Shown here one piece after another: positions 1 to 62,754 of a stretch of DNA of 64,000 nt; position 1 is the first letter of the stretch, and every line of letters begins with the position of its first letter. Position numbers and translations under genes: made by a program. Source of the stretch: Ustilaginoidea virens (lineage: Eukaryota > Ascomycota > Sordariomycetes > Hypocreales > Clavicipitaceae); NCBI RefSeq assembly GCF_000687475.1, contig NC_057319.1, positions 3,958,001 through 4,022,000 on the forward strand, read 5' to 3'. The notes under the pieces were generated by a model. That model had not been told where the DNA came from. It did not search any database and was given only the letters and a program-made list of their open reading frames with translations.

Positions 1-2966
1 ATGCCCTCGTCGAGTATCTCAACCAGCTGAATCTGCGAGGCGACATGGTCATGGACGAGCTGAAGAAGGTTTCGGCCGACAAGGCCGACTTGAAGAGGAA
101 GCATGCCGAGGCGGAAGAAAAATGGAAGGGAGCAAAGGAGGAGCTGGATGCGCTGAGAGCTGCCAGGCCTCCTGAATCGACAGCCATGGCAGAACCGGCC
201 AGCGGGCGGACGTCGATTGAGCCGGCGGTTCGCGCTAGCACCAGCACCGCACCGGAAAAGGCCAAGTCGCCCGTTGCAGCCGTCATTGGTATGTTCTCTC
301 CCAGGCTAAAGGCCCAAAACGAAGACATCAAGGGCCAGCCGGCCAGCGAGGACTTTTTTTCGTACGACCAAGAGGTGCCTCAGTTACAGGCCGAACTCTC
401 GCTCAAAGCGCAAGAGATACAGCAGCTCAAGAGCAGAATCGAGGACCTGCAGCAGGAGCTCTCCGTCGCGAAAGAAAACAGCGCTGGGTTGGCGGAAAAC
501 TTGGAAAGGACGTCGCGGGAGTTGAGCGAGTCTCGCGATGCCGCAGGCTCCCAGGACTCCCTGCAAGCGCAGCTCGACGAGCGAAACAACCGAATCAAGT
601 CGCTGACGGGGGAACTCAGTGCCGCGCAGTCGCAGCTTCAATCTATGCAAGACCGGATGGAAAGGGATGGGGAAAACCATGCATCACGCGTCGAGGAGAT
701 GGAGGCTTCCCTGGCCAAATCTGACAAGAAGGCGCTGGAATTAGACGCAGAGCTGGCCAAGGCCAACAATGCCAAGGCCGCGTCCAAAAAAATTGCCGAC
801 AACCTTGTTACACAAATAGCAGTGCTCGAAAAGGAAAAATCGGAAAGCTTGGCGAGAATCGGGGAGCTCGCCAACAAGATTGACTCGGCGCCTTCCGCAG
901 CGGCAGCTGCCGCCACCACCACCACGACGTCTGGCCTGGCCGCCGCAGCGACGACGGGATCCTCCAAGAAGAAGAATAACAAAAAGAAGAAGGGCAAGGG
1001 TGGCTCGACAGCGGCGGCCACTCCGGCGGCAGCTAAAGAGGAAGACGCAAGCAAAGAAGGCTCAGCCGAGGCCGAAACCGTCGCCAAGCTCAGGGCCGAG
1101 GTGGAAGCAAAGGACAGGGAAATCGAAAGGCTGTCCAAAAAGCGCAAGACGGAGGAGGACTTGAGGGAGGAAGTCGAAAACTTGCAAGAAAACCTGCTGA
1201 GCATTGGACAAGACCACGTCGAGGCCAAGGATAGGATCAAGGAGCTGGAGGCGAAAAAGACCCAACTCCAAGAGCGGATTGCCGAGCTGCAAGGCGAGAT
1301 TGGCGCCTCTGCGTCCAACGCGACGGAAAACACGAGGGCCAAGGACGAATTCGACGCTCTGCAAAGGGACCACGACGACTTGAGGGCCAAATTTGCCGCG
1401 CTGCAACATGACCTCGGTGCAGCTCAGCAGCTCGCGCACACGCGGTTCAAGGACCTAAGCGAACTACGCGAGTACTTGCAAAAAGTACAGCCGGAGCTTC
1501 AGAGGCTGCTGCAAGAGTCGGCGGAACTCGAGAAGACCAAGGAAGAGCTGGCGACCAAGGTCAAGGAGCTCAGGGGGGTAGAGAAGAGGGAGTCTGACTT
1601 GAGGCGCGACGTCGGCAAAGCTCAGCAACTGGCGTCGGAGCGGGAGAGGGAGATGAAGAAGCTGCAGGAAAAGCTCAAGTCGGAAGGCATCAGCAGGCAA
1701 AAGGCGGAAGAGGGAAGGCGCACGGCCGAGAGAGACTTGAGACGGGTCGAGGCAGACAAGATTGAGCTGAGCGCCAAGGCGGAAAAGGGGGAGCGCGAGC
1801 TGGCAAGGACGCAAGACGAGCTCCACAAACTACGGGGCCGGGTGCAAGAGCTGGAGGAGCAAGCGCACCGGCTCCGGAGGGAGAAGGCGGCGGCGGCGGA
1901 GGAGGCCGAGTTCAAGACGCAGCAGTACGCCACGGCGCAGGGCTTGCTGAGCAGCATGCGGGACCAGGCGACGGAGATGGCGGTCCAGCTCAAGGAGGCC
2001 CAGTCGCAGGCGGAGTCGCTGGAGGAGGAGCTGTCGGAGGTGCAGCAGCTGCTGCAGGAGCGGACGCGGGAGGGCGAGACGATGCGGCGCCTGCTGGCGG
2101 ACGTGGACGAGCGGGCGGACAGCAAGGTGCGGGAGATGCGGGGCCGGATGGAGGCGGCCGTGGAGGAGCGCGAGCGGGCGGAGGACGAGTCGAGCGCGCT
2201 GGCGAGGCGCAAGGCGCGCGAGTCGGAGGAGCTCAAGCGCCGGATCCGCGAGCTGGAGCGGGAGGCGCAGGCGCTGGGGCGCGACCGGGACGAGCTGGAG
2301 CAGGGGCAGCGCGAGTGGAAGCGGCGGCGGGAGGAGCTGGAGGCGGCGGAGGCCAAGGCGTGGGCGGAGACGGAGGAGCTGCGGACGGCGGTGTCGCAGC
2401 TGCGCGCGGCGCTGGACACGTCGGAGGCGCAGGTGCGGGACGGGGAGAAGCAGCGGGCGCACATGCGCGCCATGCTGGACGACGCGAGGGCGCGGCACGA
2501 CAAGCTGGCCGGGGAGCTGAAGAGCGCGCAGGAGCGGCTGGGGCGGGCGGGCAGCTCGAGCCGCAGCTCGGGCGAGTCGGCGAGGAGCGGCGGCGGCGGC
2601 GGCGGCGACACGGCGTATCTCAAGACGATACTGCTGCAGTTTCTGGAGCAGCGGGACGGGCGGTTGAGGGCGCAGCTGGTTCCGGTGCTGGGCAAGCTGC
2701 TCAAGTTTGACAAGTGAGTGTGTTGTTCATTTCCCTTTTTCCTTTTCTCCCCCCTTTCTCCTCTTTTCTTTTTATTTGTCTTGTTCCCTTTTCCGCCCTT
2801 TTCTTGTTGTTTTTCTTCTCTATTCCCCCCTTTCCCTTTCTTTCCTTCTCCCCCCCCCCCCGTCTGGTTCGCTCTCCCTGTCCGGCGATCACCGGCGACC
2901 ATCCGCGCTGACGCTTGGCTCAGGACCGACGAGCAAAAGTGGGCCCAGGCCGTGCAGCACATCTAG
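1..2966 (+). CDS. IMH1: Golgin with C-terminal GRIP domain (Imh1-like), 5' end outside window
   Basis: Peripheral Golgi coiled-coil tether recruited to trans-Golgi membranes by Arl1-GTP through its GRIP domain. The reading frame is already open at the left edge (first full codon at 3), so the true start is upstream. About 900 residues of charged heptad coiled coil are visible, interrupted by an Ala/Thr/Lys-rich low-complexity linker (about 290-330 residues into the visible part). The GRIP domain is at the end: YLKTILLQFLE with the tyrosine expected to contact Arl1, then PVLGKLLKF. The frame seems to stop at 2715, but a consensus donor GTGAGT at 2714, branch-like GCTGAC near 2907 and acceptor CAG at 2921-2923 splice in 43 bases, so the protein ends KFDKTDEQKWAQAVQHI, as fungal GRIP proteins do. 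Proposed coding parts: 3-2713 and 2924-2966. High confidence in family and splice. Confidence 0.93.
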
Positions 2967-7481: not shown

Positions 7482-8882
7482 TCAAAGAAACCCGCGGACC
7501 CAACGCGCGTCGAGCCATCCAACCTTCTCAAAGGCAGTCCACAGTTTGGAGGCTTTGTTCACGTCAATCTTGCAAGCTTGTTGAGCATCCGTCTTGCGGA
7601 ACTCCTTGCCGGTGCGCAGACATTGGAGCCGTCGGTCAAAAATTCGTCGCTTGCTTGTCAAATACGTAGCACAATCAAGACGCAAGTTTCCGGCCAGCAG
7701 CAGCTCGTCCGGGTGAAGAAGGTTGGCCTGAGGATCGCTGCTTAGATCAATCGGCTGGCCCTTCCAATCCACCTTGAGGCTGTTGGCTCGATGCGGCAAC
7801 GAATCCAACGGGGGACAGTAGTTTGGCAGCGAGTTGAAATCCTTGTCCTCGCGATTTGGGGCCACGATCCGACGAGACGGCTCCGGCGTCGCGCTAGCAC
7901 GCCCCGCCGCAGGTAACACTGCTGCGGATGCTCCGTTCATCGTGGCAGGGGTGGCGGCGGCGTGGGCGGCGTGGGCGGCGTGGGCGTTGGCGCGCATTGG
8001 CCGAGGGCCGCCGGCACCAGGTTTGGTCACTCGGTCGACGCGCTGCCGGGGGGGCTTTGCAGCAATGGGCTTGGCCGGCATAATCACTTGGTATCGTTGC
8101 ACACTTGCCCGCCGGTCCGCCTCAAGGAGAGCCCGCTCCTTCCGAAGCCAGCCCTTCCTGTTGGTGGTGAAGTGCTTCATGACTTGGGATCGAAAGGTAA
8201 GGGCCAGCTCGTAGTCCTCGCGTCTGGGCGGTGCCACTCGGCCAAAAATGGTGTGCGATCGTGCCAAGACGTGCTCGTCGACTATCCTTTGGTGATGCTC
8301 GAGCTCGGCCGGAGCGAACAGTGGCTGCTGCTGCTGCTGCTGCTGAAGGCTGGCTGGAGAATGCTCGTCAACGGGGTATAAGACAGGGTCTTTGAGTATG
8401 CGGCCAGGCGGTGTCGCAGGCTGCCCATTGGCCGTCGAGATTGGCTTGCTGCAAGGTGAGACGGGCGGCGACATGGGCAGCGGTTGCTGCGAAGACGACG
8501 GCTTGCCGTAGATACTGCCCGACCTCTTCATTATCGAATAATTGCCCTGAAAACTGTCGAGAACAACCTCGGGCGGCGACATGAGGCTGAGCAAGTTGAA
8601 CTTGTTGCACTCCATGGGTGGTGGTGGTGGTGGTGGTGGTGGAGCCATTGGCACAGAGAGTTTGCGGTGGTCGGATTCTGAACTTGGCCCCATGGAGGGA
8701 TTGGAAACTTGGCGACCAACAAGGGATCGAAACAGCAAAGAAGGGGAGGAGGAGGAGGAGGATAAAGGGCAAGTAAAAGTGGTCGGAGCAAGGCGACGAC
8801 TTTGCTCAGCTGCTGATTGTTTGTTCTGGTCGAAGGCAGTAGAAGTCCGCAGGTGACCGGGTGCTGAGGGTTTGTCAGCCAT
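7482..8882 (-). CDS. SWIRM-domain chromatin protein (Fun19/Laf-like)
   Basis: A 466-residue nuclear protein. The C-terminal SWIRM domain occupies about 375-466: DLSSDP, LLHPDELLLAGNLRLDCATYL, TSKRRIF, then KIDVNKASKLWTAFEKVGWL, the helix set that binds DNA or histone surfaces in chromatin complexes. Fungal stand-alone SWIRM proteins of this kind include budding-yeast Fun19 and the fission-yeast Laf proteins, which associate with histone deacetylase complexes. A second conserved block, VAPPRREDYELALTFRSQVMKHF to KERALLEADRRA (about 217-258), is typical of the filamentous-fungus members. Low-complexity runs: Pro9 at 81-89, a Gln run at about 180-186 and an Ala/His stretch near 300-310. No intron needed. 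The start codon is the first ATG of the frame. Confidence 0.9.
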   Translation of the reverse strand: MADKPSAPGHLRTSTAFDQNKQSAAEQSRRLAPTTFTCPLSSSSSSPSLLFRSLVGRQVSNPSMGPSSESDHRKLSVPMAPPPPPPPPPMECNKFNLLSLMSPPEVVLDSFQGNYSIMKRSGSIYGKPSSSQQPLPMSPPVSPCSKPISTANGQPATPPGRILKDPVLYPVDEHSPASLQQQQQQQPLFAPAELEHHQRIVDEHVLARSHTIFGRVAPPRREDYELALTFRSQVMKHFTTNRKGWLRKERALLEADRRASVQRYQVIMPAKPIAAKPPRQRVDRVTKPGAGGPRPMRANAHAAHAAHAAATPATMNGASAAVLPAAGRASATPEPSRRIVAPNREDKDFNSLPNYCPPLDSLPHRANSLKVDWKGQPIDLSSDPQANLLHPDELLLAGNLRLDCATYLTSKRRIFDRRLQCLRTGKEFRKTDAQQACKIDVNKASKLWTAFEKVGWLDARWVRGFL

Positions 8883-10257
8883 GGGCGGCTGCGGCGACTA
8901 TGACTGTGCTGTGACACACTGACGTGACGTGGTGGTGGTGGCGATGGTGGGCAGCAGCGGGCAGCGGGCAGCGGGCAGTGGGCAGTGGGCAGAGTGGCGA
9001 AGAAGCCGTAGCGCCGTTGGAAAGCCAGGACCGTGCGAAGTAGGCGGCTGCCACACTATCGGAGACGGAGTGTCCGAGTCCGGAGCAGCCTATCCCACAC
9101 TGTTCGACCTTTTTTGGGCGATTCGGAAAAGCTTGGATTGAATGAGAGCTGAATCGGATGGAGCGAGTAACTTGCGGCAACCAGTTGAGCTTTTGGGGCA
9201 AGCGACGAGATAAGCGACGAGAGAATCGACGAGAAAAGGGGGGGACCAGGACGCGTCGGCGGAAAGTGTTGACGAAAGTGTTGACGTCTTTTTAATGCGG
9301 AGATCGTGTTTGGGTGGAGGAGAAAGGCTCCTGTTGTGGCGGGTGGGGTGATTGACTCGTCGGCTCACTCGGCGTTTGCGTTGGAAGGGAGCCGTGGCCA
9401 AAAAGTTCAGGGTCAGCCCAGGTCACCCAACTCAATTGTGCAATGTCGACGAAAGCTGGCGGTGCTATGTTGAGGAGCAATAAACGACTTGACTCACGGG
9501 GCAGCCAAGGGTTTTGAACCTTTTTTTTTTTTTTTTCGCATGAAATCGTGCCAGAGTTCAATGCACGTATAAAAGGCAGGCGGCAGATAATGATGACTGG
9601 AGTGAGGGGGCAGCGTGGGGCTTGGCTTGGCTTGGCTTGACTTTTTGGGCTTCGCCTTGCGCAGTTGGACGCGGTACCGACGACCCCAACCCAAGGCAGG
9701 CGTGGGCGCGGGTACCGTGAGTTGGTACCCAAAGTGGAGGGACTGACTGCAGGTCGAAGCCAGAGGTACGTACCTTGGGTAGACGCAGGCACGGCGATCC
9801 AAAGTGCACACCCCCTCCACCCACTCTTCCCCCCCCCACCACCGGGTGGAAGGAGGCGTCGAGTGATTGGCTCGCAAGGCTCGACGGGCTGACGAGGAGC
9901 TGAAAGGGGATCCTCGCGATTTACCACAGGCTGTGACTGTGACTGACGCACGCCCAGGGTAAGGGCCAACAAAGGTTATCAGTTGGTGACGGCAAAGAAG
10001 CTTTCAAACCACAAAGGGAATGAAGAGCGGCGACGGGCTCTTTCTGGTCGAATCAAAAAAGGACTTGCTGCTGCTGTCAAAGATGGGTATGTGGCTGTTG
10101 CAAGGTTTGCAACTGAAGACTGGCGTGTGCGTATAACGAACGAATGACGAGCGGAAGCTAGGCCATTGAACTGTGATAAACCAAGACATCCATCAAACAA
10201 GGCTGAATTCAGGCAGCTAGTTGGCAAGAGGTACATCTGCGTCGAGCAAAAACACAA

Positions 10258-14836: not shown

Positions 14837-15324
14837 TCACGTAAAGTCGTAAACCAATAGACTTTCCCTCCCGTCGCAGGCTTCCTTGAGAACCACCACC
14901 GTCTCCTCGTCGAACCCGACCCGGTTCTTCCTCTTGTCCGGGTCGCCAGCCCGGAAGGGCGCTTCCGGCCCGCTCGCCCTTTCGCGCGCCCCCGCGTCGG
15001 GGCTCGGCTGCCTTGGCTGCCTTGGCCGCAGCTCCACGCTGCTGCCGCCCACGCGACCCTCCAGCTCCCACACCCTGATCTCGTCGCCCCGCGTGCTCAC
15101 GCTGACCGCTTTACCCCGGGGCGTGATTTCCGCGTCCGAGATGCCCGACGTGTGTCCCCAGAGCCGGATGCCTGGCGACATGGAGAGCGACGAGGCTGTC
15201 GAGGTGCACAGGTGGAGGAGGAGCGTGTTGTCCGGCAACGTGGCGAGCAGGTAGGGATGGCTGTAGCATAGTCTCGTGGGACCGTCTTCTCCTTCATCAT
15301 CATCATCGTCATCGTCATCATCAT

Positions 15325-15355
<31 letters not shown>

Positions 15356-16813
15356 GTCATCATCATCGCCGTCTGGTTCCGCCACCGGCCGTGCGAGGGA
15401 AGCGCGTGGCGGACAACGCAACGGGGGCGACGGTGCTGCCGACCTGCGGGTTTGCAGCGGCAGCGTGTACGCCACACGCGATGTGACGACGTCTGGCTCA
15501 GACGCCCCGGACGGCTTAATGTCCAGGTCCTGGATACCTATGCTCCAGCCCCCGACTGCGTCAAAGGTATACACGATGGACGCAATGACGGAAGCTGCCA
15601 CGCGCCGTATGGACAGCGCCAACGGCGGGCGCGTGCTGTGAGACTTGAGCGAGGTGAGCATCCTGGGCGGGGGGAGAGTAGCCGCCGCCACAGCCTTTCC
15701 GTGGTGTGTTTTGCTCGGGCTCGGGATTCGCGCATGCAGCCTTTCGTCTTCTGATGCTGCTGCCCGCGAGTCCTGCTGCGCGGCGGCGGCGGCGGCGGCT
15801 GGAGCATCGGTCTCGGCGTGGTCAAAGGAAAACAGTGAAATGAAGCCCAGCCGGGACGCTGTCAGAATGTAGGGGTTCGCGTAGGTGATGGCGACCAGTT
15901 GCCCGAGATGACTGGCAGAATGCTCATACACGAGGCTGATGGTGGCCGTCTTGATGTCGAGTCGCCAGATGCCAAATGTGCCGTCTTGGAACCCGACCGC
16001 CATGTCGAGCGTGCCCGTGCTGAGCAGCAGATCATCTACGGCGAGACAGCTTGGCTGGGCCGTCTTTCGGCCTGTCGTCAGGTCCGCCTGGGAGATGAGC
16101 TGTCTCGTCTTGAGATGCCACGCCCGCAGACCGGACACGTCGTCCGCCGTCACCGCCAGGCCATCCACCACCCTGACGAGCGTCTGCCACTCTGCGCCGG
16201 CGGCGTCTCGTTCCAGGTCGTTGACCCGGACCTCTTCCACGGCGCATCTCCCGCGCGACCAGTTGTGCCGCAGCTTGTACTGCTTCTTCCAGTCGACAAA
16301 GCCGTGCGCGTCGGCGTCTGCGCTCCTGCGGGATCCCGGGGCGCCGCGCCGTCGGCCGCACCCGGCACCTGCCGAAAGGAGGCGCCTTGCGGACGAGAGC
16401 CGCAGCTTGCCCAAGCTCAGGCTTCGAGCGGGGCCTGCGCCAAAGCCTGGTATTCCATGCGCGCGGGGCAAGATGAATCGGCGGTAGTAGTGTGGTCGCC
16501 ACAGCTGCGAGTCACACGTGATGCGGTTGAATCGGCGGGAGACGACGGAGATGCCAAGGAGCATTCTCTCATCCAGGAAGGAGAATATGCGTATGAGGAG
16601 CTCGTCGGACAGCTGGGAAAAGATGGCTGGCCCGGGAGCAGCGGCGTCTGTGGTTCGAGCTCGTTTGGCGACGGGCGGCGTCAAGGAATGGTGGTGGTGG
16701 TGGTGGTGAGGGTGGCAGCGTCTTGCGTCGTGGCTGTGGCTTCTGCTTTTGCCATGGTCGCAATCGCCATCGTCCTGGCACTGGACGGTTTTTCGTTTGG
16801 TAGAGGTAGCCAT
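14837..16813 (-). CDS. F-box protein with WD40-like C-terminal half
   Basis: A 658-residue protein, single exon. F-box at about 64-110 (FSQLSDELLIRIFSFLDERMLL), the Skp1-binding module of SCF ubiquitin ligases. The remainder has degenerate WD-type repeats, for example DVSGLRAWHLKTRQLI near 225, TLDMAVGFQDGTFGIWRLD near 275 and IRLWGHTSGISDAEI to DEIRVWELEG near 555-590, so it is probably a substrate adaptor. Similar F-box/WD proteins exist across Sordariomycetes, and fission-yeast Pof10 is a possible relative, but I am not certain. A His7 run sits at 36-42. An Asp-rich tract of about 30 residues at roughly 478-507 is encoded by a CAT/CGT trinucleotide array on the plus strand (15294-15368). 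It probably inserts into a blade loop and is likely to vary in length. Confidence 0.83.
15294..15368 (+). repeat. Coding trinucleotide array (Asp tract)
   Basis: Imperfect ATC/GTC repeat read as GAT/GAC on the minus strand within the F-box protein, giving an almost uninterrupted poly-Asp segment. Confidence 0.85.
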
Positions 16814-17613
16814 CGCAGCCGACGCGATTGTGTGAGCTCAACATGCAGGCTGCCAGGTCGCTGCCTTAGGAAGGGATGGAGTGTCAGGTAACGAGTGAGG
16901 AACGGTTGTCGAAATCTTGCCGGGTGCCGTCAAGCAGGGATATAATGATACTGGCCAAGGCGAAAGGAGACGAAAAGAGACCGAGACGACCGTAACGTAG
17001 GTGAAGACGAGACCAAGCGAAACATGTCCGAGTTGAGTATGATGGGAGGGGAGGATTTGCATGCCAACACGGTTCGTCGAGGAGGTGGGCTGGGGGGGGT
17101 GGGGGGGGGGGGGGGGGGGCCTGGCGGTGAGAGATGCTGGCTGGTGGCAGCATGCATTGTGGTGACGACAAGTCGCCGACACCAGATATACAGTGGGTGG
17201 TACAGGGAGGTCCCGGCGGGGTACGGCAGGGAGCCTCCTGGAAGAGGCGCCTGAGCAGGTGGCACGGTTGGTGGCGGCAGCGCTGGTACCGATGTACAGG
17301 ATGTCTGGTATTGACCTATGTGTTGACGACGTGGGGGCACTTGGCAGGGAGCGGCTATCACGAGGAGAGCCAGAGCCCATGGACGATTGATTCCTCTCGA
17401 GACAGTTGACCAGCCGACCGCTTGTTGCTTTGCGCTACTTGACCGTCCCTGATAGGTACCGTATGTACTAGGAGGTAGAAAAGCTTATATATATACTATC
17501 TGCCAGACTACAAAGACGTCTGGTGTCATCTGCCCGATGATTCTTACCAACCCGTCTCCCGTCTCCCGTCTCCCGTCTCCCCCATCAAAGGCGTCATACA
17601 CAAAGCACCGCCT
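16814..17613. other. F-box gene upstream region and convergent spacer
   Basis: No gene seen. Contains a G-rich run at about 17092-17119 and a CCCGTCT heptanucleotide repeat (four units, 17551-17582) next to the 3' end of the MCP1 gene. Confidence 0.55.
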
Positions 17614-20087: not shown

Positions 20088-22391
20088 CTACGTCATGGGT
20101 GTATGCTGTTGCTGCATCTGACATGGGCCGTTTTGCTGCGGCGGCTGCTGTTGGTGCTGCTGCATCCATCTATACGGATCTATTTGCGACAAATCTTCCT
20201 CCAACAATCCCATCATGTTGCGGTTTCCGGAGAACCAGTCCGCTAGTTGGGCTGCTTGTCCGGTGAGAGTGGGAGGACCGGTTGCGGCACTTGCGTTGGC
20301 CAAGCTCTGGTCCTCTGTGGGCATGAAGCCCAGCTGGCTGAGGTACATTTCGAACTCGTCTCCAATGGGGACCATGGCCTGGTCCTGTCGCTGCTGAGAC
20401 TTGGCTTCCACATAGAGACCGGCCACGTCGCACATGACTTGGCAGAGACGATAGAGCTTCTCGATTGTTTCCGACGCCACCCTTGCCTCGTCGAGCGAGT
20501 GAACAAACTCTTGGAGCAGCTGCAGGTCGTCTAGGGAAGCTGTCTCGATGACATAGCAGAAGAGCACGAAGAAGGGCGCAAACGGTGTCAGGAGCAGGTT
20601 CCTAGGCAAAATCAAATTAGCAAAAAAAAAAAAAAGGGGGGGGGAAAAAGACAAAGAAAGAGAGAGAAGAAATCAGGTAGATGCATCTGCCACAGGCATG
20701 ATGATGGCGAGTAACCGTACCAGTGAATATATATGGACCGAAAAAACCCCCCAATGGTGGAACGCTTGGTGCACTCCTGATGGACCTTCATCGCTTTCCT
20801 CGCCGTCTGCAAGCACTCATCGCAGAAACGAGTGACCGATCCCTCTGGCGCGGGAATCACGCGGTAGACCAGAGTCAACGTAACCTGGTACTGAACCTCG
20901 TCCCCGAGCAAGAACAAGTCTACCAGATCGGAGGAATTCACCGCCTTGAGATACTGATACGTCGAGGCGCGGCACTCGTCCGCCTCCACCTCGAACTCCC
21001 TACACGCGCTTGCCAGCGCTCGTGCCCGCTCGACAATCTCCGCCTGCGGACGTTTCAAGGCACTGGGGCTGTAGAGCTCCTCGTATATCCTGCTCTGCAA
21101 GTAGCTCATCTCGATCCAGAGCGTGGCCAGCGCCGAGGCCTCTGGGTGTCCCAGTCCGTCGAACTCGAATATCCGCGGGATGTCAATGTCGCACTCGTGA
21201 ATGACGGGAGCGCGGCCGAGGCGGAGCCCGAGGCTCTTGTCGAGGGTGTATACGTGCCAGAAGAGTATTCGTTTCAGCCGGGCTGTTTCGGGGGGGTCCG
21301 ATTCTGACGGTTCTGTGCGGTGGTAGCCGCCTGTTTGGCAGAGTTGGGCGGCCATGCAGGCCAGCTGCCAGGCTACTGACGGACGTGACACATCTACAGC
21401 GTACAGGGCCTAGAATAGGAGGATGCCTTTAATTACACGGGCTTAAAGGAAGAAGAAGAAGATGAAAGAGAGGAAACGGTTCTTGTACTCACGCCCAGCA
21501 GCAACGCCTGGACATTCTCCACCCTGGTCGCTAGGAACAGCTGCGTGTTGGCAAGGGCAGTTTCCAGATTGGCCTGGCTTTGTCGCATGTACGCGTGGTA
21601 TTCGTCCCGTGCTGAGGGGTCTGTAGCAAGAGAACCTTGCTCCATGAAGAGATTGTAGAGCATGGCGTTGACGATGATGAAGGTGGCATCGGAAAACTCC
21701 TCGGTTGCAAAGTAGACTCTACGACACAGCCCGGTGAAGTCGGGCAGGCCTACGAGGGAACACATGATGGTGAACAATGTTGGGGGGGCGGCTGCAAAAT
21801 TTTTTGGAAACCAAAAGGACAGAAAGAAAGAAGGACGGAAGGAAGAAAAAGCGGTTAACTTGGGAAGAACAACGTCTTTGGGTCTGGACTGGAAGAAAAT
21901 GGCGTGGTACTGGTACCTTTGGCGTGCTTCAACAGGGTGACGACGGCCTGCATGGGAGGCATGGGAAGCTTGGAGATGCCGCCGGCGGGGACGGGCTGTT
22001 GGAGAGGGAACCGCGGACCGTGGCTTATCGACCGCCGCTTTTGCATCTCGACCAGCTGGCGGAGGTTGGTCAGGCCAGCGGCCATCTTGGGATTTACGTC
22101 GCGCAGCGATGCGCGGCTGACAGCGCTCTCCAGGAACTCGCTGGCAAACGCGGTATGGGCCACCAGGCCGGTGTCGCCGCCGTACGCGGATTCATCTTCG
22201 CTACTGGCGTAGTCGCATGTTGAGCCGGCCGTGGGAACGCTGCTGCTGCCGCCGGTGGGAGGCGTGGCGCCCAAGGCTGCAGGGTCGAGATGGAGCTGGA
22301 CGGAAGCCGCCGGTGATGCTATGTTCTTGAGGAGCACCTCGATATTGCCAAGCCGGCTCTCGATCTGGTCAATCTTTCGCTCGCTAAGCAT
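20088..22391 (-). CDS. Fungal transcription factor domain protein, Zn2Cys6 cluster not visible
   Basis: A 658-residue regulator in four exons: 21917-22391, 21493-21791, 20721-21409 and 20088-20601 (introns 125, 83 and 119 nt, all phases compatible). The middle homology region of Zn2Cys6 regulators is clear: RLKRILFWHVYTLDKSLGLRLGR, then APVIHECDIDIPRIF, in exon 3. A coiled-coil-like linker (ERKIDQIESRLGNIEVLLKN) that normally follows the zinc cluster opens exon 1. The Gln-rich C-terminus (QQHQQQPPQQ) may activate. No six-cysteine cluster was found on this strand up to about 23.3 kb. The start used is the first in-frame ATG, immediately before the linker. An acceptor-like CTTAG at the same place, with CTGAC ahead of it, would instead join an upstream exon carrying the cluster. 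The N-terminus is therefore uncertain. Confidence 0.8.
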
Positions 22392-26041: not shown

Positions 26042-29000
26042 ATGGCCACTGATCAACACAGGGCATCCAGCACCGAGTCGTCGACTCTGGATGAGACCCA
26101 CTCGTCCATCGCCAGCTCCTACGACAGCCCAGGTCAGCATGGTGACAACGGCGACGACAAGGGCCCCAGAGGCTCCAGCTTTGGATCCCTCCTTCGCGTC
26201 TTCCAGTACAATGACATGGTGGGATGGGCGTTGAATATCATTGCCTGTATGGCCATGCTCGGCGCTGGCGTTGCGTTCCCCTTGATGAACGTTGTATTCG
26301 GAAACTTCATCGACACCTTCAATGATTTTACCAATGGGAGCCTGTCGCCCGATGGGTACATGGAGCAGGTCAACCACTTTGCCTTGTATTTTGTCTACCT
26401 CTTCATCGGCAAGCTCTGCCTGACCTACGTCTGGACCGTCCTCATAAATATTACCGCAATCCGGACGACTAGGAACCTGCGAGTCGACTTCCTTCGCCAA
26501 ACACTGCGTCAAGAAATCTCCTTTTTTGACAGCCCTTCGTCGTCCGTGTCCAGCCAAATCACCACCAACGTCAACCTGGTAAATAATGGCATATCCGAGA
26601 AGCTCGGCTTGATCATCCAGGCTCTATCCATGTTCGTCTCAGCCTTTATCGTGGCTTTCATCGTGCAGTGGAAGCTGACCCTCATTACCTTGGCCATCGT
26701 GCCCTTCAACGCTGTCATCACGCTTGGTTGCATCTACCTGGATGCAAAGTACGAGTACAAAATGTTCAACATTTACGCGGAATCGGGATCCCTGGCTGAA
26801 GAAGCCTTCTCCACCATTCGTACGGCGCATGCCTTCTCGGCCTTTGCGCAACTGACCATGCGCTTCGATGGGATTCTCGAGAGGGCTAGACGACTGGGCA
26901 AAAAGAAATCGCTAATCTATGCCATTCTCTTCCCAACCGAGTTCTTCAGCATCGTAGCAGGCTATGCGCTAGCCTTTTGGCAGGGTATGAGGATGTATTC
27001 GACTGGAGAAATTCAGAGTCCTGGTACTGTGGTGACGTCAGTCCCTCTGCTCATCTCATCGTGGACATTATTATCGAGGCGCCTGTACTAACAAGAGTTT
27101 TGCATTTGCAGTGTCATTTTCGCCGTGCTGGTGGCCTCACAAGCCCTTACCATGATTGCACCTCAAACCGTTGCCATATCCAAGGCCATGGCTGCTGCCC
27201 GCGATATGTTTTCCACCATCGACAGAAAGTCTGCCATCGACTCTCTCGCTGAAGAAGGCACTAAAATTACAGGTTTCAAAGGCGATATTAAACTGCGCGG
27301 TGTGCATTTCTCGTATCCCTCACGACCTAGTGTCCCAATTCTACATGGACTAGATCTCGATATCCCCTCAAACAGAACCACTGCGCTTGTCGGTGCCAGT
27401 GGTTCGGGGAAAAGCACGATATTCGGGCTCCTGGAGCGCTGGTACGCTTACTCTGGTGGCAGCATTACGCTGGACGGTCATAAAATCGAAAATGTCAACC
27501 TATCGTGGCTTAGGAGCAACCTCCGGCTGGTCCAGCAGGAGCCCACGCTTTTCAGCGGCACCATTTTCCAGAATGTCGTGGATGGCTTGACTGGTACCGA
27601 ACAAGATGGCTTGCCGGACGAGCAAAAGGCCTTCCTCGTCACCGAGGCCTGCAAGGCTGCGTTTGCGCACGACTTTATCCAGGAGCTTCAAAACGGATAC
27701 CAGACGAGGATTGGTGAGCGCGGAGCTTCACTATCAGGAGGCCAGAAGCAGCGCATTGTCATTGCCCGCAGCATCATCTCCAACCCCAAAGTGCTGCTAC
27801 TAGACGAGGCGACGAGTGCTTTGGACCCAAACGCCGAGAAGGTGGTGCAAGCTGCCTTGAACAATGTTGCCAAGGGCCGCACCATGGTGGTCATTGCCCA
27901 TAGGTTATCCACCATCAGAAATGCAGACAACATTGTGGTCATGGCCAAGGGAGAAACTGTAGAGACGGGTACACATTCGGAGCTGATCAGTATGGGAGGC
28001 GCTTACTCCAGGCTTGTCAAGGCTCAGGATTTGGGCAAGAAGTCTGGGGTGATCGAAGAGGATCCCGGCGAGGAGAAGGACGAGGTGTTTGCGGATTTGA
28101 ATAAGACACTGACTCACGCGTCAAATTCCGGAACTGCCGCCGAGGAATTCACCTCAGGGGGCGTCAAGAAATACGGACTCGTGCAGGGGCTGTGCTTGAT
28201 TATGAGAGAGCAACCAAGCCTGTGGTGGCCATCGTTTTCTGTATTCCTGACTTCTGTCTGCGGTGGTACGATGCCTTTGAGCCAAGCTCGCATCTACCTG
28301 GGATTACTGCTCATGCTAACCATGTTGTGTGCTCCGCAGGCATTACATATCCCATCTTGGCCATATTGTTTTCCAAGACCTTGGAGGCCTTTGAAACCAT
28401 CGACGTATCAAAAGCCAACTTCTTCGCGCTCATGTTCCTTGTGGTTGCTCTCGGCAATCTCGTCTCATATGCTGTTTGTGGCTGGCTTACGAATAGCATT
28501 GCGCAGGTACGTCTCTCTCTCTATCTCTCTCTCTCATATTATGATCACTGCCTGATGCAATTTTCAGGCCGTCATGAAGCACTACCGTGGCGAGATATTC
28601 GACAACACTCTTCGACAAGACATGTCCTTTTTCGACAAGCCCGAGAACGCAACTGGTGCCCTGGTTGCGCGGTTGGCTTCAGAGCCGACCAGCTTGCAGG
28701 AACTCTTGTCTATAAATATTGCGCTTATTGCAGTGGCCATTATCAACCTCGTCTGCAGCTGTATCCTGGCCATAGCCTACGGATGGAAGCTAGGGCTAGT
28801 CTTGACTCTTGGCGCCCTGCCGTTTGTTGTAGGATCAGGCTACATCCGGATCAGACTCGAATCCAGATTTGAAGAGGACACTGTCGAGCGGTTCGCAAAG
28901 AGCAGCGCAATGGCTGCCGAGGCTGTAATGGGCATCCGGACTGTGGCATCTCTCGCGCTCGAGAAGGCTGTTATCGATCGCTATAGCGAAAAACTCCGAG

Positions 29001-30130
29001 GCATTACGCGGCATTCTATCCGCAGCTTAGGTTTCAAGATGTTCTTCTACTCGATAAGCCAGTCAACGTCCCTGCTCGCAATGGGCCTTGGATTCTGGTA
29101 CGGCAGCAAGCTGGTTTCCACGGGGGAATACTCGTCTGGCCAGTTCTACATTGTCTTCCTAGCTGTCATATTCTCTGGCGAAGCAGCGGCCACGTTCTTC
29201 CAGTACTCGACTAGCATTACAAAAGCTGGCACGGCGATGAACTACATATTCCGGCTCCGACGCGATCGCATCTCCTTGGACGGCGAAGAGGACGACGGCG
29301 GAAATGACAATGCCAGGAACGCCGGCTTGGCTATTGTGTCTGATACGGAACCTCCGCAAGGCGAAAAGGCCAGCGGGAAAGGCTCGGAAATAGCCTTTGA
29401 CAAGGTCTGCTTCTCTTACCCGCTGCGCCCGAAGCAAACGATCCTGCGGGGCGTGGACATGGCCATACAGGCCAGCAAAATGGTGGCGTTTGTCGGCGCC
29501 TCTGGGTGCGGGAAATCCACTATGATTAGCCTCCTGGAGCGCTTTTACGACCCTACGAGCGGACAACTGCGTTCCAACGGCCGGGACGTCCGAACAATCG
29601 ACCGGCGCAAGTACCGGCGCGACATTGCCCTCGTCCAGCAAGAGCCGGTGCTATACCAGGGCTCTATCCGGGACAACGTCTCGCTGGGAATAGAAAGCGG
29701 CAACCCTAGCGAGGCGCAAATTATAGAAGCATGCCAGAGCGCCAACGTATGGGACTTTGTGTCGTCTCTGCCCGAGGGCCTCGACACGCCGTGCGGGAAT
29801 CAGGGCCTGTCCTTATCGGGTGGTCAGAGGCAGCGAATCGCGATAGCCAGGGCGCTTATCCGCAAGCCAAGGCTGCTGCTGCTTGACGAGGCAACAAGTG
29901 CGCTGGACACCGAGTCCGAGAAGGTCGTCAAGGAGGCGCTGGATCGCGCCGCGGCGGGGAGGACGACTATCGCCGTGGCTCATAGGCTGAGCACGATTCG
30001 GGATGCCGACACGATTGTCGTGTTTGCAAGGGGGACTATTGTGGAGGCGGGGACGCACGACGAGCTGTTGACTCGCAAGGGGTTGTATTACGAGATGGTG
30101 TTGGGGCAGTCCTTGGATAGGGAGGCGTGA
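26042..30130 (+). CDS. ABC-B full transporter (MDR/Pmd1-type exporter)
   Basis: A 1292-residue exporter arranged TMD1-NBD1-TMD2-NBD2. Exons: 26042-27036, 27112-28265, 28340-28506 and 28568-30130. Introns are 75, 74 and 61 nt; the first has a perfect TACTAAC branch site. NBD1: Walker A GASGSGKST near 425, signature LSGGQ near 538, Walker B VLLLDEATSALD near 558, H-loop IAHRLST. NBD2: Walker A GASGCGKST near 1081, LSGGQ near 1188, LLLLDEATSALD near 1207, VAHRLST. Both sites look catalytically complete. The first 60 residues are polar and cytosolic. The family pumps hydrophobic or cationic drugs, peptides and secondary metabolites across the plasma or vacuolar membrane. It faces the Pls-like synthetase tail to tail, 528 bp apart, so a role in product export or self-protection is plausible but inferred. 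Confidence 0.93.
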
Positions 30131-30658: not shown

Positions 30659-33600
30659 CTACCCCTCGGAACACTCGTACCGGGTTTCCAGCAAACCCAG
30701 GTCCTTCTCTTCATCCCACGGCCGGATGGGATTCCCGCTCCACCGAGTTCCCGCCGGGAGGTGCTCGCCACGCATGACCAACGACGTCGGGGCGACAGTG
30801 GTGCCTGACCCGATGCTGGTGCCCGGGAGCGCAATGGCGTAGGGCCCGAGACAGGCTCCCTTCTCCAGGCGCACTCGGTCCAGGCGCATGAGCCGGTCGT
30901 GGAACAGGTGCGTCTGCAGCACGCACCCCCGGTTGACAGTAGCCCCGTCGTCGAGCTGGACGAGCTCGGCCTCGGGCAGCAGGTGGCTCTCCAACCACAC
31001 GCCGCGGCCGATTTTGGCCCCCAGGGAGCGCATGAACAGGGCCAGCAGCGGCGTGCCGTAGCACATGCGGACGAGCCAGGGCATGGCGAGCGACTGCACA
31101 AAAGTGTCGGCGAGCTCGTTGCGCCAGACGAACGAGCTCCATAGCGGGTGCTGCTTGCCGGCTCGGACGACCGGCGTGAGCAGCCACTTGGCCGCGGTGG
31201 TGATTGCGCAGGCGGTCAGCCCTGCCGCCGAGAGCACCGCCACGCCGGACAGCAGCGTGTACACGGCTCCGTGGTGGATAAGGACGTACAGCATGGCGAC
31301 GCCGACGAGGGTCGTCAGCAGCGAGGAGATGAGCAGCGGGCATAGCCTGCACGACTCGATGAGCGCGCGAGCCAGCACCAGCCGGACGGGCGGCTTGAAG
31401 GTGAGGGCTTCGTCGGCGAGGGCCTCGGCCTCCACGCGCCGGGGCAGCCGCATCGGGGGCCGGCCGAGCCACGAAGATCCGGGCTCCATCTTGCGGTCCT
31501 CCGCGGTGCCCAGGACGCCGATGAGCGCGCCGTCGGGAACGCGCACGCCGGGGTGGACAATGGCCGAGTTGCCTACAAAGGTCTTGGCGCCGACGGCCGA
31601 GGCGCCCAGCCGGACGCGCCCGGCGGACAGCTCAAGGGGCGACAGGAGCACGTCGTCTGCCAGGAAGGCGCCGTCGTCGACGTCGAGGAGGGACGGGATG
31701 GGCACGACGGTGGACGACTCGACGCAGCCGCCCACCCGGGCTCCCAGCAGGCGCAGCCAGGTCGGGGTGAGCAGGCTGGCGTAGATGGGGAACAGGGCCG
31801 TCCGGGCGTCCATGACGAGAAAGTGCGTCAGCCAGGCTGCCCAGGCGGCGGTGCCGTGCCACGAGTACACGCCGGGACGGATGGCCAGGCCGGCCAGCCG
31901 GACCAAGGCGACGACGACGGCGGCGTAGATCAAGGTGCTCAGCACGGTGCCCGGGAGCGTCGTCTTGAGCAGGCCGACGCAAAATTTGCGGTAGGTGGTG
32001 CGGTAGTCGCCGCCCAGGACCAGCACGAGCCCCCAGCTGGGCGCGACGAGGAGGAAAGGCAAGAAGTCCAGCAGCAGCAGCGACGCGGTGTACCGAGCGG
32101 CGGTCCAGAACGTCGCGCTGGTGCTCACCGCGTCGAACTTTTCGTCCTCAAAGGCAAAGTGGTCGCCGTCGCCGTCGCGGTCGTGGTTGTCGGTCTTGCC
32201 CGCCGTGCCCTGGACGCTGACGCCCGGCCGCACCGTGGCAAACGGTTCCACCACGGCGCCGGGGAGGAGGATGGACCGGGCGCCGACCCGGGCGCCGGGC
32301 CCGACGGTGACGGATCCGACGTGGAGCTCGTCGCCGTCGAGCCACCAGCCGGCTACATCGGCCTCGGGCTCCACGGCGCAGCTGGTCCCGAAGCTGCCCA
32401 GCCCCGTCACCGGCGGCAGGGAGTGCAGCTGCGCGTCCCGGCCGACCTGGCACCCTAGCAGCCGGGCGTAGTACCCGCACCACTGGGTGCCGGCAATGGC
32501 CGCGATGCGGCTCTGGGCGACGAACCGCTCCGCCGCCCACAGGCGGAGATGCAGGGACCCGCCGCGCTGGTACCGGCCCGGCTTGACGCCCGCGGTGAGG
32601 ATCCGGGCGACGGCCGCGGCCACAACCAGCCGTCCGGGCGTGGTGTTCAGCGCCACCCAGCCGAGGACGACGAGCCACCACGGGAGAGGGTGCGCTCCGG
32701 CCCAGGCGACTCCGAACGAGCCCAGGGACGCCGAAGCGGCCGCCTTGTTCACCAACGCCAGGGCCGCGAGCCATCGGAGCGCCTCGTAGGCAAGCAGGGC
32801 GAGCAGGAAGGGCGCCTGGGCCAGCAGGATCCAGCGCGTGGTCGGGGCCACCGAGCGGGCGGTGACCTCCGTGCCGGAAAGCTGGTCGACGCGCGAGGCC
32901 ATGGCCGCGAGGGTCGGGCACTCGTAGACGTCGGCCACGGAGAGGGTCGGGCACCGCCGGCGCAGCTGCGAGACGAGCTGCGCCGCGGCGAGGCTGGTGC
33001 CGCCGAGGTGGAAGAAGTTGGAGTCTGGCGAGGCGGCGGGCATGCCCAGCAGGCAGCGCCACTGGTCGGCCAGCCAGGCGGTCGTGCCGTCGACGGGGGA
33101 GGAGGCGTCGGCCGGCGCGGGCGGCGAGGGCGGCGGCGGCGTCGGCGGCGGCCAGGGAAGCGCCTTCCGGTCCACCTTGCCGGATGTCCGGATAGGCAGG
33201 TCGGCGACCGTGACCAGCATGGGCACCAGCGTGGCGGGGAGCACCTGGCGGAGGAGCGCGCGGTCCGCCGCGTCGTCGGCGCCGCTGCTTCTGTCGCGAA
33301 CCACGTACCCAACGAGGAGCTGGGTCCCCATCTCGCTCCGTCGTATAGCGCTAGCCGCAGCGCTCACCCCGGGGAGGCTCATGAGCGCCGCGTCAATCTC
33401 GCCGAGCTCGACACGCCGCCCGCCTAGCTTAATCTGCTCGTCGTCGCGGCCGACAAAGACAAGCCCGTCCCTCTCTGCGCGGACCAGGTCGCCGCTTCTA
33501 TAGGCCCTCTGACCGCTAAATACCCCGGCCGGGGCAAACTTGGCCATATCCTTCTCCTGGTCGAGGTACCGCGCCATGCCGACCCCGCCGATGACCAGCT

Positions 33601-34660
33601 CGCCGACCCGGCCCCATGGCACGGCAGCGCCGTCCGGCCCAACAACGGCCAATCGCCAGCCAGCCAAGGGCAGTCCGATGCGCACCAGCTCGCCAGCCAA
33701 GAGCGGGGCGGCGCAAGACACCACGGTGGCCTCGGTAGGGCCGTAGGTATTCCAGACGGGCCCGTTGACGGCGCGGCTCAGACGGGCCGCCAGCTCGGGC
33801 GGGCACGCCTCGCCGCCAAGGATAAGAAGGTCGAGCGAGCGCAGCGCTTCCGCCGGCCACAGCGCGGCCAGGGTGGGCACCGTGGACACGACGGATATAC
33901 GCTGCCTGACGAGGAACTGGCCCAGGTCCGCGCCGGCTTTTACCAGGGATCGGGGCGTGGGCACCAGGCACGCGCCGTAGCGCCAGGCGAGCCACATTTC
34001 CTCGCACGAGGCATCAAACGCGACCGACAGCCCGGCTAGGACGCGGTCCCCAGGCCCTAGGGGTTTCCCGTTGAAGAACAGCTTGGCTTCGGCGTCGACA
34101 AAGGCCGCCGCGCTGCGGTGGCTCACGGCCACGCCCTTGGGCTTTCCCGTCGAGCCCGACGTGAAGATGATCCAGGCGTCGTCCTCGAGCGTCGGGGTAG
34201 TATCCTGCGTGATGGGTGCGGGCCGTGCTTGCCTTTGGCAAAGGGCGTAGTCGTCGGTGAGGACGGCGCAGACCCCGGCCTCGGTCCACACCAGATCGGC
34301 CCGCTCGTCCGGGTCGTCCACATCGACAGGGACGTAGGCAGCGCCGGCGGCCAGGACGGCGAGGATGCTGACGTAGAGCTCGAGCGAGCCCGACGTGACC
34401 CGGATGCCGATGCGGTCGCCCCGTCCGACGCCGTTGGCTCGCAGGTTACATGACAGGACGGCAATCTGCCGGGCCAGCTGGTCGTAGCTGAGGGACTGCG
34501 TGCCATTGTCAATGGCAGGCGCGGTAGGATGAGCCAGGGCTGACGCGTTAAAAATGTCGACGAGAGTGCGAGGCGCGGCGGGCGGCTCGAAGGCATATAT
34601 TGCCAGTTCGGGATGCGCACCCGCCGGCTGACCGGGGTGCGTCTGTTGAGGCACGCTCAT
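30659..34660 (-). CDS. Pls-type NRPS-like synthetase (epsilon-poly-lysine synthetase family)
   Basis: A 1333-residue, intronless, membrane-bound single-module synthetase. Adenylation domain about 25-505: FTSGSTGKPKG 166-176, FDAS 215-218, YGPTE 306-310, GRDDEQIKLGG 404-414, RTSGKVDRKAL 491-501. Carrier domain about 525-600 with FFHLGGTSLAAAQL; phosphopantetheine Ser556. No condensation or thioesterase domain follows. Instead six hydrophobic segments (about 611-638, 660-690, 858-884, 903-926, 1105-1128, 1131-1160) separate three tandem left-handed beta-helix-like domains (about 695-850, 930-1090, 1165-1320), with hexapeptide-type runs such as VTVGPGARVGARSILLPGAVV. This is the layout of Streptomyces Pls, which joins L-lysine through epsilon-amino bonds; a fungal homologue is known from Epichloe (recalled, not checked). 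By-eye pocket code D-A-E-S-I-G-T-V-V-K; the acidic E220 suits a basic substrate. The substrate is inferred. Confidence 0.88.
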   Translation of the reverse strand: MSVPQQTHPGQPAGAHPELAIYAFEPPAAPRTLVDIFNASALAHPTAPAIDNGTQSLSYDQLARQIAVLSCNLRANGVGRGDRIGIRVTSGSLELYVSILAVLAAGAAYVPVDVDDPDERADLVWTEAGVCAVLTDDYALCQRQARPAPITQDTTPTLEDDAWIIFTSGSTGKPKGVAVSHRSAAAFVDAEAKLFFNGKPLGPGDRVLAGLSVAFDASCEEMWLAWRYGACLVPTPRSLVKAGADLGQFLVRQRISVVSTVPTLAALWPAEALRSLDLLILGGEACPPELAARLSRAVNGPVWNTYGPTEATVVSCAAPLLAGELVRIGLPLAGWRLAVVGPDGAAVPWGRVGELVIGGVGMARYLDQEKDMAKFAPAGVFSGQRAYRSGDLVRAERDGLVFVGRDDEQIKLGGRRVELGEIDAALMSLPGVSAAASAIRRSEMGTQLLVGYVVRDRSSGADDAADRALLRQVLPATLVPMLVTVADLPIRTSGKVDRKALPWPPPTPPPPSPPAPADASSPVDGTTAWLADQWRCLLGMPAASPDSNFFHLGGTSLAAAQLVSQLRRRCPTLSVADVYECPTLAAMASRVDQLSGTEVTARSVAPTTRWILLAQAPFLLALLAYEALRWLAALALVNKAAASASLGSFGVAWAGAHPLPWWLVVLGWVALNTTPGRLVVAAAVARILTAGVKPGRYQRGGSLHLRLWAAERFVAQSRIAAIAGTQWCGYYARLLGCQVGRDAQLHSLPPVTGLGSFGTSCAVEPEADVAGWWLDGDELHVGSVTVGPGARVGARSILLPGAVVEPFATVRPGVSVQGTAGKTDNHDRDGDGDHFAFEDEKFDAVSTSATFWTAARYTASLLLLDFLPFLLVAPSWGLVLVLGGDYRTTYRKFCVGLLKTTLPGTVLSTLIYAAVVVALVRLAGLAIRPGVYSWHGTAAWAAWLTHFLVMDARTALFPIYASLLTPTWLRLLGARVGGCVESSTVVPIPSLLDVDDGAFLADDVLLSPLELSAGRVRLGASAVGAKTFVGNSAIVHPGVRVPDGALIGVLGTAEDRKMEPGSSWLGRPPMRLPRRVEAEALADEALTFKPPVRLVLARALIESCRLCPLLISSLLTTLVGVAMLYVLIHHGAVYTLLSGVAVLSAAGLTACAITTAAKWLLTPVVRAGKQHPLWSSFVWRNELADTFVQSLAMPWLVRMCYGTPLLALFMRSLGAKIGRGVWLESHLLPEAELVQLDDGATVNRGCVLQTHLFHDRLMRLDRVRLEKGACLGPYAIALPGTSIGSGTTVAPTSLVMRGEHLPAGTRWSGNPIRPWDEEKDLGLLETRYECSEG

Positions 34661-60894: not shown

Positions 60895-62754
60895 TCATGG
60901 CAGCAGCTTTTCACCCTCTGCTTCCAACCACCCCGTCATCCTGTACTCTTTCAACTGCACTGCTATGTTCCCCGTGTATCCCAAGTCGCCATTCACCTGT
61001 TCCAGTTTCCGCATCACTCTGCCCACAAGCTTGGCAAGCCTTTGGTCGGTCGATATGATGACCTTTTTGAACTTCTCCTTGACTTTCTGGTTGAGCGCCC
61101 CGGGTATTTCCTTCAACGTGGGTACATCACCGGCGGTCGCTTCTTCTATTTCCACCAGCTTGCTAGCCTTGACCAGCAGCGCGACAAAGTCGAGCAGTTC
61201 CTGGTCGAGGATTGCCGGTAGCTTGGCGTGAACAGAGGCCTTGACATGCGCGACGTCGGCTTCTTCTGCGTCCAGTCGGCCTTCCGAATCACGCTCTGTC
61301 GGAAGCAGGTGCTCGTGATGGGGCAGCAGGTAGCTTGGCAGGACAAAAGTCGCGTCGGCACCGCCCAGCCTCACCACCTGGACGAGGCTCACTTCATCAG
61401 GCAGAGCTCGGTAGGCTCGCACGTCGTCGACTGCCAGTTGACAGTTTATGCTGTACGAAGAGATGATGGGCACTTGAGCAACGCCCAGGACCGTGCCAAG
61501 CTCGACGGCAAAGTTGGCGTCGGCGACCCATGCGGACACGCGGTCCTTGAGGCGGCGTAGCTCCGAGTCGGACTCGTCGTACCCCTTGAAGATGCTCTGC
61601 ACCACCAATTCTTCGATCCAGCGCCCCGACGCGGTAGCCGTGATGGAAGATATGCTGACCGGGTGAAAGTAGGAGATTGGGTTAAGCACGAGGCGGAGGA
61701 GCATGGGCAGCCTGTGAAGGAAACCTCGGATGCGGGGAGGCAGCAGCTGCTGCAGCGTCGTCACTTTGATGGAACGGGTGGGAGGATGGGGCACCGACGG
61801 CTTGGAATGAAGCTCAGAGCAGATGGCCGCTCGCAGCGCAGACTCGTCATCCAGCGCAGCGTCGGCATTCTTGTCCAGTTGCTTGATGTACTCCCGAGCT
61901 TCATGGACGGTATTAGTATCATTGATGTGCTTGAGGATTCTTCTGTACTGCTCATTAGCGGCGTCATCCCGCAGAGTAAACTGCTTCATGTCCTTGGTCG
62001 CAGTCCTGTGGGAGGAATCAACTGGAGGGCTTCCATCCGTCAGGTCATACTTCATCTGGACGGACTCGGATGTGCTTCTCAAAGACGGGCCGCAGTCCGA
62101 CGCAGCGCCGTCGCCCTTTCCGACGTTGGCATTCTTCAGGTTTGCAAAACAGTCTCCCACTTGTATGCTGCGAAACAGCGACACGGAAACCGTCTCGGTC
62201 TGGACTGCCAGCTCCAGATCGTCGGGCAGCTTGATGCCGACTTCCACGCCGTGGATGACGAAACTCAGCGACGACAGGCAAAACGTGATTCCCCTAAAAA
62301 CCATCAACCCATCGACATCCGTGTCAATCTCCAACGCCGGAATGTCGAACAGGGAGATTTTGTCATCGATGAAATGCAACTGCCTGATGAGCGTTCGCAT
62401 CACCCTCCGCGTGACGTCGCCCACAATGTCGAACTGCGTGAGGCATGTTAGGTAGATGGTCGGGTAGCAGAGGACCGCGAAAGCCCAGTAGAGGAGCCAC
62501 GAGGTAGAGGCCACGGCATAAGCCAGGTTGACGGTGGCGAACAGCGTCCAGACGTGAGCAAACGGCGCGATTCGCTGGCCCCTGGCTTCACCGACCAGGA
62601 TGAGGAAGCTAAGGGCTGGCGCGCCCGAGATAAGCCATCGCCGCAGCCATTCGTAGTTGGCGGCTTGCAGGACGGCCGTGGCGGCGAACAAGGTTGGGAC
62701 CGTCATTGAAGGCGGCCACAGCCATGCTCGAGTATCCTTTGCCTTGGTGCCCAT
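60895..62754 (-). CDS. Conserved fungal membrane protein of unknown function
   Basis: A 619-residue single-exon protein with several hydrophobic segments in the first 110 residues (APALSFLILV; LFATVNLAYAVAS; LLYWAFAVLCYPTIYLTCL). A long soluble part follows with blocks I know from a widespread filamentous-fungus family: LRQLHFIDDKI-like, PALEIDTDVDGLMVFRGITF, SLSFVIHGVEVGIKL, HPPTRSIKVTTLQ, FLHRLPMLLRLVLNPISYFHPVSISS, LGGADATFVLPSYLLPHHEH and LDQELLDFVALLVKASKLVE. No catalytic motif is seen, and no characterised member comes to mind; the beta-rich middle could suggest a lipid-transfer or outer-membrane-contact role, but that is speculation. The ATG starting MGTKAKD was chosen: the longer frame upstream begins with GTG and contains Lys-rich sequence from a T-rich promoter tract. 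Confidence 0.82.
   Translation of the reverse strand: MGTKAKDTRAWLWPPSMTVPTLFAATAVLQAANYEWLRRWLISGAPALSFLILVGEARGQRIAPFAHVWTLFATVNLAYAVASTSWLLYWAFAVLCYPTIYLTCLTQFDIVGDVTRRVMRTLIRQLHFIDDKISLFDIPALEIDTDVDGLMVFRGITFCLSSLSFVIHGVEVGIKLPDDLELAVQTETVSVSLFRSIQVGDCFANLKNANVGKGDGAASDCGPSLRSTSESVQMKYDLTDGSPPVDSSHRTATKDMKQFTLRDDAANEQYRRILKHINDTNTVHEAREYIKQLDKNADAALDDESALRAAICSELHSKPSVPHPPTRSIKVTTLQQLLPPRIRGFLHRLPMLLRLVLNPISYFHPVSISSITATASGRWIEELVVQSIFKGYDESDSELRRLKDRVSAWVADANFAVELGTVLGVAQVPIISSYSINCQLAVDDVRAYRALPDEVSLVQVVRLGGADATFVLPSYLLPHHEHLLPTERDSEGRLDAEEADVAHVKASVHAKLPAILDQELLDFVALLVKASKLVEIEEATAGDVPTLKEIPGALNQKVKEKFKKVIISTDQRLAKLVGRVMRKLEQVNGDLGYTGNIAVQLKEYRMTGWLEAEGEKLLP

Follow-up and report, generated by a model that had tools for sequence, protein, structure and literature searches.

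Does the ascomycete Ustilaginoidea virens possess a synthetase of the kind that makes epsilon-poly-L-lysine (epsilon-PL) in bacteria and, if so, what does it make and where did it come from? The question is raised by a single long reading frame in the middle of the window, i.e., the stretch of 64,000 nucleotides analysed here (contig NC_057319.1, positions 3,958,001 to 4,022,000), which the original prediction described as a synthetase of the type of the bacterial epsilon-PL synthetase Pls, with adenylation (A) and thiolation (T) domains followed by six membrane helices and three tandem domains (C1, C2, and C3). Our results support this description and indicate that the genome holds two such genes, that epsilon-PL is very probably the product of the one in the window, and that the fungal enzymes form a single clade next to bacterial ones.

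Domain layout of the synthetase

The frame lies where it had been placed, with its strand now given as minus (34660 to 30659), and comprises 1333 codons without an intron; on the plus strand, frame 1 over the same interval is interrupted by stops. From stop to stop it measures 1348 codons, with a GC content by codon position of 0.71/0.53/0.88. The gene and its parts, all on the minus strand, are:

30659..34660, minus strand: Pls-type synthetase gene, 1333 amino acids, intronless; TIGR02353 match
33176..34546, minus strand: adenylation domain, residues 39-495; PF00501, 1e-59; pocket code DAESIGTVVK
32891..33076, minus strand: carrier (thiolation) domain, residues 529-590; PF00550, 5.5e-13
32993-32995, minus strand: carrier Ser556, within the motif LGGTSLAA
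32618..32815, minus strand: membrane segment pair 1, residues 616-634 and 663-681; family-averaged hydropathy
32081..32617, minus strand: tandem domain C1, approximately residues 682-860; hhalign C1/C2 98.2%, C1/C3 98.2%; structure model
31901..32080, minus strand: membrane segment pair 2, residues 861-879 and 902-920; family-averaged hydropathy
31346..31867, minus strand: tandem domain C2, approximately residues 932-1105; hhalign C2/C3 98.0%; structure model
31202..31345, minus strand: membrane segment pair 3, residues 1106-1124 and 1135-1153; family-averaged hydropathy
30701..31201, minus strand: tandem domain C3, approximately residues 1154-1320; left-handed beta-helix acyltransferase-like
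30893..30916, minus strand: motif QTHLFHDR, residues 1249-1256, in C3; candidate catalytic loop

The layout A-T-TM2-C1-TM2-C2-TM2-C3 (TM2 denoting a pair of membrane segments), with a lysine-type pocket, an intact carrier serine and a beta-helix model, is thus established at the level of the sequence. Its C-terminal part matches TIGR02353, the Pls/PosA terminal domain, with 556.9 bits (cut-off 423.1), and the match spans practically the whole profile (positions 3-695 of 695; residues 615-1312 of the protein); a better alignment of this region with a reductase or an unrelated acyltransferase was not observed. Matches to this profile below the cut-off are frequent, occurring in 13 of 14 control genomes, and only one of these genomes has a match above it. 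Both the adenylation domain, described beforehand as complete, and the carrier domain with Ser556 were recovered above their Pfam cut-offs, as were hexapeptide repeats (2.4e-11), while the match to AMP-binding_C (PF13193) lies under its cut-off. Neither a condensation nor a thioesterase domain, the lack of which had been noted originally, is among the five Pfam families listed at E up to 1. A match to Androgen_recep, also under its cut-off, was rejected as spurious.

The six hydrophobic segments of the original prediction reappear as three pairs. Hydropathy averaged over an alignment of 150 rows, from which the short proteins P0008, P0052, and P0112 had been excluded beforehand, gave ten overlapping windows of at least 1.3, which correspond to six segments (residues 616-634/663-681, 861-879/902-931, and 1106-1136/1135-1165). 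With the single protein and a threshold of 1.6, five of the six are clear and the second is undetected; long helices in the predicted structure model are consistent with the membrane segments. The three stretches that carry the tandem domains, each taken with its own membrane pair (residues 610-860, 856-1105, and 1102-1325), match one another with hhalign probabilities of 98.0-98.2% for all three pairs, compared with 0.1-0.5% in six control comparisons with the adenylation domain, in line with the three similar hexapeptide-rich domains that had been proposed.

The model of the 735 C-terminal residues is confident (pLDDT 90.4, pTM 0.92) and matches left-handed beta-helix acyltransferases, most strongly in C3: 38 of the 50 VIA matches listed start at model residue 553 or later, in or just ahead of C3, and 12 start earlier. 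C3 modelled by itself with an alignment of 12 rows gave a poor model (pLDDT 51.7). Since the TM scores to the query are low in Foldseek (0.11-0.16 among the 50 matches listed, as expected for one domain within 735 residues) and the VIA Z values of the fold matches are in a middling range (<8), the assignment of the fold rests jointly on the model, the hexapeptide Pfam match, the profile matches, and the published model of PosA, in which the C-terminal fold of the family was described in 2023 (PMC10522769). C1 and C2 are tied to the beta-helix fold mainly through their homology to C3 and the strands of the model.

Substrate, product and polymerization

The solved chain nearest to the adenylation domain is 7wew, the Pls of Streptomyces albulus (617-619 bits; the next chain scores 376 bits). 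The ten pocket residues of the synthetase were located by motif and those of 7wew taken from its alignment; the resulting code, DAESIGTVVK, is identical at all ten positions and, hence, of the lysine type. It is common to 142 of the 150 aligned rows, with the synthetase row counted in. The claimed likeness to the bacterial enzyme therefore holds for the TIGR02353 match, the domain order, and the pocket, and by analogy with the characterized enzymes we predict with high confidence that the synthetase makes epsilon-PL, its most likely product.

The family does yield several polymers, so that an enzyme for another homopolymer (poly-ornithine, poly-diaminobutyrate, or poly-beta-lysine) or a mixed one has to be considered, all the more as the ornithine branch of the tree presented in PMC10522769 takes in most fungal sequences. 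In that paper, Ala at the second pocket position is linked to lysine, Met to ornithine, and Phe to diaminopropionate or diaminobutyrate, and the ornithine enzyme PosA has the code DMEHNGTVSK. The synthetase carries Ala at this position linked to substrate length, as do the lysine enzymes, and agrees with S. albulus Pls throughout its code, which speaks against a placing with ornithine and renders any other polymer very unlikely. An ordinary reductase resembling a nonribosomal peptide synthetase, or an alpha-aminoadipate reductase with a membrane tail, would account for a weak overlap with TIGR03443, which is best over residues 383-601 and, at 121 bits, far below the cut-off of 1030, but no reductase family occurs among the five Pfam families listed at E up to 1, and residues 615-1312 match TIGR02353; we consider this explanation practically negligible.

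As described in a 2022 review, Pls works iteratively on a free chain and its polymerization step is incompletely understood (PMC9205021). By comparison with characterized relatives, the adenylation domain of the epsilon-PL synthetase proposed here would activate L-lysine with ATP and then load Ser556 of the carrier. We further propose that C1, C2, and C3 together may form one pseudo-trimeric beta-helix acyltransferase, with the chemistry of polymerization taking place at the QTHLFHDR loop of C3, and that C1 and C2 may have a structural or acceptor-binding part. Of the eight positions of this motif, seven are invariant in 63 of 63 rows and Leu1252 is present in 62 of them. The profile alignments place His1251 opposite Trp772 (C1) and Leu1009 (C2), and His1254 opposite Asp775 and Ser1012, respectively, so that histidines at these positions occur in C3 only. 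This confinement to the third domain suggests a single catalytic centre. Hexapeptide acetyltransferases employ a loop histidine. The profile matches fall mostly on the last turns of the beta-helix, beyond the loop, and gave no mapping of it onto a known catalytic histidine. Because C1 holds further invariant histidines (704 and 746), one catalytic centre shared by a pseudo-trimer is put forward as a proposal; the invariant motif nevertheless provides a short list of residues for the polymerization step.

Fungal epsilon-PL is described as antimicrobial (antifungal) and as present in the culture filtrate of an Epichloe grass endophyte (PMC7179176). By analogy, the product would have an antimicrobial role in U. 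virens.

The second copy and the origin of the fungal enzymes

A profile search of the genome, in which five candidates were scored, revealed two loci above the TIGR02353 cut-off, i.e., the synthetase and a locus on contig C6, whose protein is identical to U. virens UV8b_07622:

L002:1495-5397, plus strand: second Pls-type gene, UV8b_07622; groups with Claviceps and Moelleriella

The two proteins are 66% identical. Identity is 75% in the A domain, 76% in T, 60% in C1, 67% in C2, and 70% in C3, and amounts to 41, 51, and 51% in membrane pairs 1-3. The GC content of the synthetase gene is 0.706 (0.88 at third positions) and that of its paralog 0.645 (0.76). The synthetase looks intact, as it retains 273 of the 275 near-invariant positions, at which 97% or more of the 150 rows share one residue; UV8b_07622 likewise departs from two of the 275. 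Within the fungal clade, 19 of the 54 rows depart from none and a few from 14 to 34.

This clade emerged from the tree of the 150 rows (the homologue lists comprised the best 120 of 4399 and the best 120 of 7214, each out of 8000 candidates). Its 54 rows comprise the synthetase, 29 rows with ascomycete names, and 24 taken as fungal by their place in the tree, and the Hypocreales contain many relatives of the gene. The statement in the original prediction that the layout is rare in fungi was, therefore, too strong, also because a fungal enzyme of this kind has been published (PMC7179176). A larger tree, for which 33 rows of Mycobacterium, Nocardia, Rhodococcus, and kin served as the root, drew on the best 80 among 501 confirmed loci. 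Of 82 loci, all 80 except L028 and L092 yielded a frame of more than 900 amino acids; L091 is the paralog's own locus, so that 79 of the 80 bacterial loci were included. With these 79 actinobacterial loci the fungal clade stayed whole (support 1.0), its one extra tip being the paralog's own locus. Its sister group consists of ten rows; the four with names are all Kutzneria or Pseudonocardiaceae. The node joining the two has a support of 1.0 and the next node outward 0.335. This topology fits one transfer from a Pseudonocardiaceae-like bacterium to fungi, the direction of which is inferred, as the root was chosen within the Actinobacteria and the tree is without distant phyla.

The relation between the two copies was examined with 30 rows hand-picked from the 150. 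In a mixture-model tree the synthetase groups with P0003 and P0009 (99) and UV8b_07622 with Claviceps and Moelleriella (100); the FastTree support for pairing the synthetase with P0009 is 0.45. With groups defined after the first tree, joining the two U. virens copies was rejected (p 3e-5), as was, in an approximately unbiased test, placing the synthetase within the Claviceps group (p 0.0013; Epls, the characterized enzyme of Epichloe festucae, is outside the set). At 66% identity the copies are anciently separated and, since both joint placings were rejected, the synthetase is either an old duplicate or was acquired from another fungus.

The presence of two copies also allows for the synthetase being intact-looking but silent, without a product of its own beside UV8b_07622, which would be compatible with an epsilon-PL synthetase as regards enzyme type. 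According to PMC7179176, epsilon-PL could be detected in E. festucae Fl1 only upon overexpression of epls or vibA. Long silence would, however, erode near-invariant positions, nearly all of which have been kept although the copies are old, and we regard a silent copy as improbable. Tentative, and less likely than not, is the idea that both copies are working epsilon-PL synthetases of two old fungal lineages with different jobs, e.g., chain lengths or life stages. It derives from the fact that the catalytic parts are alike (A and C3) and the membrane pairs differ, since in Streptomyces Pls chain length is tied to the linkers to the membrane segments, as told in PMC7179176. If true, the pair would be a natural experiment on how this enzyme gauges its product, the pseudo-trimer being served by one C3 centre; two old, intact-looking copies in one genome in any case permit a direct comparison of chain length and use.

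Genomic surroundings and known systems

The synthetase has a convergent neighbour, which ends approximately 530 bases from its end:

26042..30130, plus strand: ABCB-type transporter spread over three open pieces, which together match PF00664 twice and PF00005 twice

Judged from position alone, this ATP-binding cassette (ABC) protein could be the polymer exporter or serve self-protection. Contig C1 of this genome holds a 71% paralog of its last piece, third-position GC is approximately 0.69 in two of its pieces, and no ABC gene was found among the ten open reading frames tested beside UV8b_07622 (of 32 with at least 170 codons). Twenty other open reading frames of the window were scanned. Among the frames of the window are a long one with a terminal GRIP domain (golgin-like; 3-2714, plus strand), open at the window edge, a SWIRM-domain protein (7485-8897, minus strand), an F-box protein with a pof12-type beta-propeller (14840-16837, minus strand), part of a fungal-specific transcription factor with a Fungal_trans domain (20615-21409, minus strand), and a frame of 689 codons with zero Pfam matches at E up to 0.01 (60898-62964, minus strand).

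A synthetase of this type is already known from fungi and our finding is not new in kind; what we add is the ancient split of the copies, the single fungal clade beside the Pseudonocardiaceae, and the confinement of QTHLFHDR to the third domain. PosA, the delta-poly-L-ornithine synthetase of Acinetobacter baumannii (8www), belongs to the same family, with three beta-helices over six helices (PMC10522769), but differs in its ornithine pocket and its adenylation domain scores only 203-207 bits. S. albulus Pls has the same layout according to the cited papers, an identical pocket code, and the closest adenylation domain; it is bacterial, and was compared by this domain, with its layout taken from the papers. 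In a comparison with P0054, a row from Kitasatospora, likeness is lowest in the membrane pairs (31-43%) and amounts to 62.5% in the A domain. Epls of E. festucae, characterized in 2020, is fungal, has the same domain order and a lysine pocket conserved with bacterial Pls, and was tied through overexpression to epsilon-PL of 28-34 lysines, so that its product has been shown (PMC7179176). UV8b_07622 falls in the Claviceps/Moelleriella clade and the synthetase outside it; Epls itself is, by name, outside our set. A cluster of such a kind is also reported for Cladobotryum, where a possible transfer is discussed (PMC10989895). For U. virens itself, a 2026 paper lists two NAPAA clusters for five out of six strains and none for UV-GVT (PMC13233505); it gives counts, and the count of two equals the two loci found here, with which we infer these clusters to be identical.
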